A DNA stretch of 27,266 nucleotides from a virus. The stretch is from positions 1 through 27,266 of IMG/VR virus record IMGVR_UViG_3300031702_000041; one strand, written 5' to 3'. Every line of letters starts with the position of its first letter. Within the stretch, counting starts at the first letter, position 1. The position numbers were made by a program, and so were the translations under genes. The notes below the pieces were generated by a model. The model saw only the letters and a list, made by a program, of their open reading frames with translations, was not told where the DNA came from and searched no databases. Shown here piece by piece: positions 1,051-27,076 of this stretch.

Positions 1051-1094
1051 AAAAAAAGTCTGCCCTCAACACGCTTTTAAGTGTTTTAGCAGAC
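1051..1094 (-). terminator. Strong intrinsic terminator
   Basis: On the minus strand GTCTGC (1094-1089) pairs with GCAGAC (1063-1058). The stem is extended by partial pairing of AAACAC with GTGTTG, and seven T residues follow (1057-1051). It closes the long minus-strand structural region and separates it from the sigma70-driven unit to the left. Confidence 0.8.
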
Positions 1095-1227
1095 TATAAA
1101 ACGACTGGCGTTTTTATCCTTTTTATTCGTCAGAACTAAAAGATGTAGCAGAAGTTTTCCCAACGGAGTTGCCCAATGGCATTAGGACATATTCAGGAGT
1201 ACAGTGACAGCCATACACTTCTGCTAC
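1058..1227 (-). ncRNA. Candidate structured late small RNA
   Basis: On the minus strand a late box (GATAAATA, 1240-1233) predicts a start at about 1227. The sequence at 1228-1217 (TGTAGCAGAAGT) is the perfect complement of 1155-1144 (ACTTCTGCTACA), giving a 12-bp stem whose base lies at the predicted 5' end. The 61-nt loop can form smaller stems: ATGGC with GCCAT, and CAAC-TCC-GTTG. Then come a small AAAACG/CGTTTT hairpin and the strong terminator at 1094-1051. The transcript would be about 175 nt. A 39-codon ORF overlaps the segment, so it could instead be a short mRNA. No known RNA family is claimed. Confidence 0.4.
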
Positions 1228-1242
1228 AGTATTATTTATCAT
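1123..1242 (-). CDS. Possible 39-aa protein overlapping RNA-like structure
   Basis: ATG at 1242 overlaps the end of the zinc/AT-hook gene by 11 bases and opens 39 codons (MINNTVAEVYGCHCTPEYVL, then a Ser-rich acidic end). There is no good Shine-Dalgarno sequence, though overlap with the upstream gene could allow reinitiation. A Cys-His-Cys cluster gives a plausible small-protein look. The late box lies inside its first codons, so a transcript from that promoter would lack the ATG. Coding and RNA readings of this segment compete; I cannot decide between them. Confidence 0.35.
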   Translation of the reverse strand: MINNTVAEVYGCHCTPEYVLMPLGNSVGKTSATSFSSDE

Positions 1243-2315: not shown

Positions 2316-4970
2316 TTATTCTCCTACCTTATATGATCTAATTTCGTTTGTAATTTTATGTGTTCTTCGTTCATTGTGTATTGTAAATATTCTATCTTCA
2401 CGTGGAATAACATATACAATTTCAGTAACGTGTACTAACTGTCCAAGTGCTGTTATGCTTACGCTAGTACTTATCAAACTTTCAAAATTTACTAGTTTAT
2501 CGCCGGTTGCAACTACTGTTACTTGTGCTGTTGGTGTACTACTTGCTGACAGAGTTGAGTTTGCTGTTGCACTAAGTTCTACAACATTGTTAATCTCAAT
2601 TTCGTTGTTGCGTGTTGCAACAATTATAGATGTAAATGCGTTTTCACTTGCAAGACTTGCTGTTGCGCCGACTATCTTAACCGGTGTTACGTCTAGGCTT
2701 GTGATAACTTCTTGATTAGATATTGCATCTTGACCAGCAGTTACAACAGTTGTTAAACTACTAACTGCAAACATATTAGTGTCAACAGTTCTAATAATGT
2801 TGCTAGTATCAATTCCAAGTGATGTTGTAGTGTCTAGTGTTGCCGCATTTCCGCTTGTTACTTGTGCTGTTATTGCTAAGGTTGCAACTGTTTGTGTGTC
2901 AACTAAGAAGTCACCTACTTTAGCAACTGCAACTAGTTGTGATGCAATAGACTCAGTGCTTATGTTAAAGTTTCTTATTGGACTTATTGTATTAGAAAGT
3001 GCAACTGTACTTGACATTTGTGCATCAGCATTTCTAAGAACACTTGTATTTGCAGCCATAGATGCTGTTACAGTTATAGTTGCATCAACATTATTGAATA
3101 CAGTTGACAATATGCCTAATGTACTTGTAACACCTAGTTGAGCACTTCCGCCAACAAAGCCGCCACTTACGTCTGCACTAAGTGTTGTTGTAGCGTTAGG
3201 CGTTGCTTGTGTGTCAGTTTGCTTGTGTACATCAATAGATGCTGTGTATGACGCTTGTGTGCTTGCTGTGACGCCAGCAATCTTGCTTATGTCAAGTGCT
3301 AGACTTGCAACAACATTAGCATTAATAAAGAAATCACCAATCATAGCAACAGCACTTATTTGGCTTGCAATACTGTCAGTGTTAATGTTTGCGTCTTTAA
3401 CAAATCCGGTTAATACTGTTAAACTTGCACTAGATGCAATGTCAGCACTTGCGCCTTGAATTATGTTAGCATCAGCAGTTAGTGTGCCACTTGACTGATG
3501 TATTGTAATACCGTCTAAGGTTGCGTTAGGAACAGCAACCATTGTTGATGTTGTTGCAAGTGTAGCAACGCCTTCAAGCAATGCTTGGAATGTTTCATCG
3601 TAATTATTGTTAAACTGGTAATGCCAAACTACATTGTCTTGGTTGTAAGGTTGTGTAGAACTAGATGTTAAATTTGATTCGCCTCTTCTAAAGTTCCAGT
3701 TATCATAATATGCTCTAGAGGTAAGGTGATTGCGAGTTATGTTGCTATACAATCCACCCCGGAGATCAAAAGTAGAAGAATCTATTTGTATTCTTCCATC
3801 ATATGAAGTACTGGCAATAACTGTAGTGTCTTTAATTAATTGTACAGTACCGCTACTATTTCTTCTTAATGCAACACGTTGCCAAGTGTTGCCTGATAGA
3901 GATGATGATCCATTTAATCGTAAAGTGCGAGGTTGACTACTACTGCCACTATTATCAATTGCGTTAACAAATGCAACAAAGCCACTACCATAGGGGCTAT
4001 AGTTAGTACCTATTGTCATACCTATCAGATGGTTATTTAACCAGGCAGCATTATAACCAAGACTTCCGCTTAATTTGGAGGTCTGGGTACCTAGCCCGTC
4101 AGATAGGGTAGAGTTTGTTGGTCGCCTTGCACCTACAGTTGCAATATATTCGTCAGAGTAGTTATTGCCATCTACATAGATCCAAAACTCTAATATAAAT
4201 TCTTCATCTTGTGCAATGTATCGTAGGGTTGGCGAGCCGTCTGTTAACACCAATCCTTGGTTATAGGTTCTCTGAGCCTTAAGAGAATGTGTGCCTTCTT
4301 GTACTATTGTAGTATCAAACGTTGTTTCAATATTTGTAGCAGATAGAGCAGTAGTTCTTGCGTTTGTATATGTGTTTGCAGAAGCAAAGTAATGCGGAAC
4401 TGTAATACGATTTGGATATGTTTTACCAGTAAAGCTCATTGGAGCAACTGTTAGTGTTGATATTACACTAATTGCAACATCTGCGTTAACAGTCATTAAT
4501 AATTCAAAGCCGCCTGTACTTGACAACAAAGCACCAAAGTCTTTGAAGACGGATGGTGCTGTTTGAATATCAATAGATACGGTTTGTGCAGAGTCTACAT
4601 CACGGACCCTATCGCCTTGCAAACTAGTATTAATAATACTGTCAAGTGTAATTACATTGCCTGCAATCTTGCTTACAGTAGCACTCATTGATATTACTGA
4701 GTCAAGTATGGCTGCGTGATTCTTTAATGCATCTGCAACTAGTGTACTGCCGCCAAACGCTTCAAGGTCAACTTGTGCTTCAAATATAAGTCCGGCAGCG
4801 GTAATACTAGTAACTTGTACTTCAAGTGCTACGTTAAACTCTTTAACTTGACCACCAACGATATAATCGTCATCAATGTAGCCTTCAATGTAATAACCAG
4901 TGGTGCTGATTACTTCATCAAAGTAATCGTTATCAATGTAACCTGGTTCGTAATATCTAATATCAGCCAT
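2316..4970 (-). CDS. Large LamG and repeat-containing fibre protein
   Basis: 884 residues. The N-terminus (MADIRYYEPGYIDNDYFDEV) is Tyr/Asp-rich. Residues about 180-450 look like a LamG/concanavalin-type jelly roll (EEFILEFWIYVDG, GNTWQRVALRRNSSGTVQLI). The remainder is low-complexity Ala/Ser/Thr beta-rich sequence with a degenerate repeat. One repeat pair is clear: INTDSIASQISAVAMIGDFF (about 527-546) and ISTESIASQLVAVAKVGDFL (about 667-686), 140 residues apart. The C-terminus ends in a charged motif (VIPREDRIFTIHNERRTHKI). It is probably a tail fibre or adhesin binding host surface glycans. No chaperone or protease domain is seen. Confidence 0.7.
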   Translation of the reverse strand: MADIRYYEPGYIDNDYFDEVISTTGYYIEGYIDDDYIVGGQVKEFNVALEVQVTSITAAGLIFEAQVDLEAFGGSTLVADALKNHAAILDSVISMSATVSKIAGNVITLDSIINTSLQGDRVRDVDSAQTVSIDIQTAPSVFKDFGALLSSTGGFELLMTVNADVAISVISTLTVAPMSFTGKTYPNRITVPHYFASANTYTNARTTALSATNIETTFDTTIVQEGTHSLKAQRTYNQGLVLTDGSPTLRYIAQDEEFILEFWIYVDGNNYSDEYIATVGARRPTNSTLSDGLGTQTSKLSGSLGYNAAWLNNHLIGMTIGTNYSPYGSGFVAFVNAIDNSGSSSQPRTLRLNGSSSLSGNTWQRVALRRNSSGTVQLIKDTTVIASTSYDGRIQIDSSTFDLRGGLYSNITRNHLTSRAYYDNWNFRRGESNLTSSSTQPYNQDNVVWHYQFNNNYDETFQALLEGVATLATTSTMVAVPNATLDGITIHQSSGTLTADANIIQGASADIASSASLTVLTGFVKDANINTDSIASQISAVAMIGDFFINANVVASLALDISKIAGVTASTQASYTASIDVHKQTDTQATPNATTTLSADVSGGFVGGSAQLGVTSTLGILSTVFNNVDATITVTASMAANTSVLRNADAQMSSTVALSNTISPIRNFNISTESIASQLVAVAKVGDFLVDTQTVATLAITAQVTSGNAATLDTTTSLGIDTSNIIRTVDTNMFAVSSLTTVVTAGQDAISNQEVITSLDVTPVKIVGATASLASENAFTSIIVATRNNEIEINNVVELSATANSTLSASSTPTAQVTVVATGDKLVNFESLISTSVSITALGQLVHVTEIVYVIPREDRIFTIHNERRTHKITNEIRSYKVGE

Positions 4971-20849: not shown

Positions 20850-20857
20850 TATTTATA
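20850..20857 (-). promoter_or_regulatory. T4-type late promoter box TATAAATA
   Basis: Exact T4 late consensus TATAAATA on the minus strand in the 85-base gap before the scaffold gene; followed by ACAAT. Placing it directly ahead of scaffold and capsid fits a need for high late expression. Confidence 0.65.
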
Positions 20858-24982: not shown

Positions 24983-24990
24983 TATTTATC
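24983..24990 (-). promoter_or_regulatory. T4-type late promoter box GATAAATA, leaderless
   Basis: GATAAATACTTTTATG on the minus strand. With the T4 geometry (box at -13 to -6) the A of the ATG at 24977 is +1. The 19-base block TGATAAATACTTTTATGGA is identical at the small terminase gene (27061 region). Confidence 0.6.
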
Positions 24991-25097: not shown

Positions 25098-25105
25098 CAT
25101 AAATA
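25098..25105 (+). promoter_or_regulatory. T4-type late promoter box CATAAATA
   Basis: The only plus-strand copy, GCATAAATACTACAAAGG. Predicted start near 25111, giving an mRNA that begins at the AAGGA ribosome site of the FkbM gene. Confidence 0.6.
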
Positions 25106-27068: not shown

Positions 27069-27076
27069 TATTTATC
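27069..27076 (-). promoter_or_regulatory. T4-type late promoter box GATAAATA, leaderless
   Basis: GATAAATACTTTTATG on the minus strand, placing the A of the terS ATG at predicted +1. Preceded by a T6 run. Shares a 19-base identical block with the promoter at 24983-24990. Confidence 0.6.

Follow-up and report, generated by a model that had tools for sequence, protein, structure and literature searches.

A folded small-RNA family of uncultivated aquatic bacteriophages and its predicted pairing with an adjacent transcript

ColE1 RNAI/RNAII and R1 CopA/CopT are kissing-loop antisense systems, and the pRNA of phi29, a small phage RNA closed by a helix and bearing two loops, is found near packaging genes. 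Lambda OOP and P22 sar are phage antisense RNAs, the pairing of sar blocking translation initiation, and lambda PreS is a trans-acting phage sRNA with a host-gene target and a link to Hfq (PMC12197685). GOLLD and ROOL are large structured phage RNAs without a known protein (PMC12286853). As for promoters, the T4 late promoter is an 8-bp TATA box that precedes the start by one helical turn (PMC2988020). The element described here, RNA1, is, as judged from comparison of related loci by sequence, a new folded, non-protein-coding small-RNA family of uncultivated aquatic bacteriophages. Both the family and its predicted partner transcript, T2, are new with respect to the original prediction, which concerned a single candidate late small RNA.

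The window, meaning the whole stretch of DNA that was analysed, is a viral record of 27,266 nt whose terminase, portal, capsid and tape-measure genes identify a tailed phage, with nearly all genes on the - strand. Its ends, 27266 and 1, are bridged by ~235 nt in a relative contig (L001), so the map is circular and the record is a nearly complete circle. The nearest terminases, 46% identical, belong to phage DSL-LC06 and to Pelagibacter phages. RNA1 lies between the Cys4 gene (1699-1232), encoding 155 aa with a CxxC...CxxC pattern, and a 69-aa gene (825-616), all on the - strand. The elements from which the original prediction had been built were recovered. The proposed late promoter box, GATAAATA at 1240-1233, is present on the - strand, agrees with the T4-late TATAAATA at 7 of 8 positions and carries the stop codon (..DK*) of the upstream Cys4 gene. 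The perfect 12-bp inverted repeat is there exactly as claimed, TGTAGCAGAAGT (1228-1217) facing ACTTCTGCTACA (1155-1144) on the - strand, and forms the stem P1 that closes the structured core of RNA1 (1228-1144). The nested stems are P2 (GUAUGG-CUGUCA-CUGUAC, 1216-1199), with a conserved hexaloop, and P3 (UGUCC-UAAUGCCAUU-GGGCA, 1189-1170), the 10-nt loop of which (L3) would be the seed for T2 pairing in the family; a conserved unpaired word, CUCCGUU, follows at 1168-1162, and the second small hairpin, P4 (~1141-1121), exposes GUUCUGAC at 1136-1129 in its loop. The strong terminator, AGTCTGC...GCAGACT-TTTTTT at 1095-1051, was likewise confirmed and, on the basis of sequence and fold, is the predicted 3′ end of RNA1; it had been missed by a simple terminator scan because of its long loop. 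The predicted RNA is thus ~177 nt long, on the - strand. The fold of 1231-1045 reaches -57.3 kcal/mol, a stability that none of 200 dinucleotide-shuffled sequences equalled (-40.6 +/- 3.9 kcal/mol; z = -4.25).

Two near-identical relatives of the window, L001 and L002, offer little variation, for instance a U.G to U-A change within the P2 stem of L002. Distant relatives were obtained from terminase-fetched loci, where the element occupies the same syntenic position directly after the Cys4 gene, and the family was extended to 39 non-redundant members by a script scan and by a search anchored on an adaptor protein encoded 0.5-1 kb upstream, itself not found in an 84,980-species genome collection. 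A loose pattern scan was rejected as a source of members, as it yielded unrelated loci. In relatives, P1 is substituted by an unrelated but fully complementary sequence, the closing stem being GTAGCGGAGAA/TTCTCCGCTAC in L164 and TGTATAGTAAGAC/GTTTTACTATACA in L162. P3 with its 10-nt loop, mostly YANUGCCAUU, is present in 39/39 members, a count that is not independent since the P3-loop motif served to collect them; the loop variants CGCCAUU, UGCCAUG and UGCUAU occur in nearby Cys4-bearing loci outside the 39-member set. Many members also have P2 with the hexaloop CUGUCA, a free CUCCGUU and P4 with GUUCUGAC. The position of CUCCGUU is variable, lying 3′ of P3 in the window and on its 5′ side in L271, L302 and the freshwater group.

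With the loop as the only anchor for positions, 85% of P3 cells were paired, against 36-49% in slid registers and 48 +/- 3% after shuffling of partners, with 0/5000 shuffles attaining the observed value. P2 behaved in the same manner, with 72% pairing versus 55 +/- 4% shuffled (0/5000). MAFFT failed to align P1 of the diverged members, and equal-length blocks of P1 and P3 were used instead; among 25 members, two-sided changes were found at 14/14 pairs, of which only those of P3 count as unbiased because the P1 pairs had been chosen for pairing. Of the criteria for a trans-acting base-pairing sRNA, that of a structured RNA under covariation is therefore met, and on this comparative evidence we hold it as practically certain that RNA1 is a functional structured RNA. 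The original prediction had suggested weighing stem against codon constraint in homologous loci and searching Rfam. The outcome in relatives favours the stem, and in Rfam 15 nothing reached the curated threshold for RNA1, the best hits below it being at chance level. A structured late RNA is supported as the reading of the locus, given that the stems covary and the single 39-codon ORF is broken in relatives, although its start (near 1227) and its late timing are inferred from a motif and have not been measured.

Other RNA identities were tried and given up. The criterion for a tRNA or tmRNA (ARAGORN model) was not met. A hammerhead or other ribozyme was rejected, as CUGACGA at 1133-1127 lacks the remaining core and is not conserved, and no Rfam hit exists; so was kissing between the loops of P2 and P4 (UGUCA/UGACA), which co-occur inconsistently among members. 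A separate observation, unrelated to RNA1, is a conserved element (CAAAAGCATGAGG..TGTAGCAGAAGTGTAACGG..ATGCTTTTG) situated between a tRNA CCA end and an apparent tmRNA start in many contigs (L069, L068, L055, L059, L101 and others, by loose pattern scan).

Downstream of the RNA1 terminator and on the same strand, the predicted transcript T2 usually begins with TTGACA-TATAAT followed by another [AC]TAAATA, and was assigned by a fixed rule that takes the first box located 60 nt or more downstream. Between L3 and T2, the longest stretch of perfect complementarity averages 7.53 nt for own pairs versus 6.26 nt for the T2 of other members (0/20,000 permutations), and 7.5 versus 5.6 nt among 10 strongly de-duplicated representatives (p = 0.00015); as the members are related, these permutation p-values are approximate, most of the tree being ignored. 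Runs of at least 8 nt are found in 41% of own T2s, in 2.3% of other box-proximal sites of the same loci and in 1.8% of random windows (counting any of the three loops). Moreover, the match covaries. In the leader word GGCANUA, N matches the variable loop base in 11/11 members and across three variants (UACUGCC/GGCAGUA, UAAUGCC/GGCAUUA and UAUUGCC/GGCAAUA), and even the odd loop of L268, UAAUAUGCC, is matched by its leader, GGCAUAUUA. The match closely precedes the start codon in L162, L248, L249, L253, L261 and L302 and covers it (AUGGCA) in L164, L264, L282 and L165. In L188, L246, L258, L259 and L268 the target lies 7-8 nt after the box, at the extreme 5′ end of a non-coding T2 with no adjacent start codon. 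Ranking next-gene leaders against other leaders of the locus gave p = 0.024 by run length and no significance by energy (p = 0.18), and pairing of the P2 loop with T2 was only marginal family-wide (p = 0.07). Duplex energies across members seemed significant, but some next-gene calls fell within the RNA or its terminator, and the rule-based tests were used instead. Complementarity to a coevolving target is, as a criterion, met for the family and weak for L3 in the window; from these comparisons we are confident, short of certainty, that L3 pairs with T2 in the family.

In the explanation that we prefer, RNA1 would be an independent phage RNA, whose late transcription is driven by the T4-like box where the Cys4 gene ends and stops at its own terminator; it folds as two hairpins enclosed by a long stem. 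The loop of P3 (YANUGCC + AUU) would pair in trans with the 5′ leader or the translation-start region of T2. Since the loop matches and covaries with the T2 start, RNA1 probably controls T2, the simplest means being to keep ribosomes from the site or to mark the leader for decay. To the full statement, a late phage RNA controlling the adjacent transcript by loop-leader pairing, we incline without great firmness. Late transcription, action in trans and repression are inferred, the sign of the effect being unproven; independent expression and an effect on T2 are inferences too, as there are no expression data and the analysis compares only the sequences of metagenomic contigs. In addition, T2 is sometimes non-coding, and in those cases repression of translation cannot account for everything.

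In ~30 loci, T2 enters, directly or past a small ORF, a conserved RNA of ~400 nt (detected by nhmmer), here named RNA2, which lies between RNA1 and the small terminase gene (..CACAUAAGGUUGGCGGGCCAG..CCGCUGUGGAAAAACC..GGUUCCGUCUGACUGAAAC..). Examples are found at L164 7325-7723, L294 6228-6651, L272 6453-6875, L284 4162-4560, L246 2140-2559 and L302 3914-4270, among others, and RNA2 had no Rfam, tmRNA or named-phage match. Perhaps pairing does not repress T2 but joins it with RNA1 in a lasting complex of two parts, made of RNA alone or of RNA and protein. The position of RNA2 immediately after the L3 target in many loci would suit such a complex, as would the five loci where the target is at the extreme 5′ end of T2 without a neighbouring start codon. 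However, RNA2 was not detected by nhmmer in the window, L001, L144, L165, L264 or L282, all of which carry RNA1, and in several loci the target is at a start codon. A complex is an unlikely reading, albeit one that deserves to be kept in mind.

In the preferred explanation, the box would serve as the promoter of RNA1. [AC]TAAATA is found in the same place in 38/39 members, at a median of 4 nt before P1, and relatives keep it in two reading frames, the stop ending at box position 4 or 8, which argues for a function at the nucleotide level (bases, not amino acids). ATAAATA is not enriched in the window, with 6 sites versus 8.4 expected by chance; all six lie just upstream of genes or RNA1 (27069-27075, 24983-24989, 20850-20856, 1233-1239 and 852-858 on the - strand, 25099-25105 on the + strand). 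These sites are T4-late-like although the phage is not T4-like, and no recognising factor is known. Compared with a T4-type late promoter, the box is conserved and stands before genes, while the start is unmapped and no gp55-like factor was sought. The lack of a demonstrated sigma factor for the box counts against our explanation, and RNA1 could be a processed 3′UTR: a promoterless, structured end of the Cys4 mRNA freed by an RNase cut in the AU-rich box. In fact, the box overlaps the Cys4 stop codon in most members, and an AU-rich single strand ahead of a hairpin is a typical processing context. Yet the same [AC]TAAATA precedes T2 and other genes that have no upstream hairpin context, and the choice between ATAAATA and CTAAATA tracks the phage group at both RNA1 and T2. 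We find this origin improbable without being able to discard it; it would alter only where RNA1 comes from, not what it does.

The Cys4 gene directly precedes RNA1 in 36/39 members. Its protein matched no Pfam or PHROG family, and is possibly an RNA- or polymerase-binding partner. This protein and its homologs are fast-evolving and often show ..PHWxxxCxxC..YxNPxTG... On the 32-kb contig L237 (- strand, box at 4110), the gene ahead of RNA1 is holin-like and is not the Cys4 gene, to which RNA1 is thus not tied.

In the window, T2 has its predicted promoter and leader at 898-839 on the - strand (TTGACA 898-893, TAAAAT 875-870, CATAAATA 859-852 and GUCAGAAC 846-839), and its first gene is the 69-aa one, the start of which, AAAUGGCU, provides a complement of only 6 nt to L3 (the start-codon word AAUGGC). 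In the window, L001 and L002, the leader GUCAGAAC has an exact 8-nt complement in the P4 loop GUUCUGAC; L001 and L002 retain the same T2 leader with a different gene behind it, and the P4-T2 duplex in the window would comprise 10 bp with one G.U (-14.7 kcal/mol). In this one lineage, the P4 loop appears to have taken over most of the pairing, with L3 and CUCC possibly facing AAUGGC and GGAG of T2, again in one lineage only. The P4-T2 match remains merely suggestive, because it was rejected as a family rule (p = 0.94) and because 1.1% of 45-nt stretches of the window contain an 8-nt complement of some loop.

Another reading is that the conserved UGCCAUU and CUCC act as a general antisense to ribosome-binding sites (GGAG..AAUGGCA) of many phage or host mRNAs. 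A pattern scan did match, in antisense, apparent ordinary start sites of unrelated phages, and the L3J-T2 duplex in the window amounts to -16.2 kcal/mol. Nevertheless, the variable loop base tracks the adjacent transcript specifically and other box-proximal leaders of the same loci seldom match (2.3%), which leaves general antisense action doubtful in our view. More speculative still, and put forward only as a long shot, RNA1 and T2/RNA2 may constitute a hitherto unknown, aquatic-phage-wide two-RNA control system, with a hairpin RNA in command of a large structured RNA that is itself the working molecule. RNA2 could then be, for example, a structural RNA or a ColE1-like replication primer, the latter suggested because no replication gene was recognised in the ORF set of the near-complete 27-kb window genome.

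A DNA element near the packaging genes, such as a cos/pac site or a single-strand replication hairpin, would agree with the strong inverted repeats and with the site upstream of the small-terminase gene. However, with a strand-neutral choice of P1, the wobble-type exceptions in P1 are 23 G.U and 0 A.C, marking the - strand of the window as the functional folding single strand; besides, a promoter-like box and a terminator flank the element on one strand, and a dsDNA site has no use for loop-target covariation with a transcript start. We regard such a site as very improbable. The same test favours the other strand over an opposite-strand leader peptide (AUGGCA in the loop), which also lacks a conserved length. 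Lastly, the 39-codon ORF (MINNTVAEVYGCHC.., ATG 1242-1240, stop 1125-1123), with its ATG upstream of the predicted start as the original prediction had noted when it kept a coding option, is open in the window and also in L002, which carries 3 substitutions (non-synonymous versus synonymous, 3 to 1), but stops at codon 20 in L164 and codon 7 in L162, syntenic relatives that show the opposite of a peptide conserved at the expense of the stem, and its translation merits next to no credence.

What emerges is an RNA family of marine and freshwater phages, most of them uncultivated, together with a named partner transcript, a covariation rule of loop base versus leader base that is testable by two-point mutations, and a second, larger RNA, RNA2, revealed as the likely controlled transcript. 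Few regulatory RNAs of environmental phages have a predicted target. Like phi29 pRNA, RNA1 has a closing helix, two loops and packaging genes in its vicinity; unlike it, RNA1 has no evident loop-loop self-complementarity (on inspection, CUGUCA and UGCCAU need a mismatch to pair), P2 is absent in many members (e.g. L162, L249 and L253) and an ordinary terminase is present, hence a packaging RNA of this type was rejected. RNA2 is comparable to GOLLD and ROOL in being large, structured and phage-borne, but it has ~400 nt, precedes the small terminase gene and is not in a tRNA island, and neither RNA1 nor RNA2 has an Rfam match. PreS resembles RNA1 as a separate small RNA with short base-pairing, yet it involves a host gene and Hfq, whereas the evident partner of RNA1 is the adjacent phage transcript and a long closing stem dominates its structure. 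In ColE1 and R1, as proposed for RNA1, a hairpin loop recognises a partner that may be a long structured RNA; RNA1, by contrast, is neither overlapping nor counter-transcribed, and its target is a leader with no demonstrated complementary loop. OOP and sar are, like RNA1, phage-encoded regulatory RNAs close to their target; they are encoded on the strand opposite to it and complement it in full, whereas RNA1 and T2 share one strand, which excludes a cis-antisense RNA of that type, and RNA1 stands upstream with a loop-sized, covarying match only.
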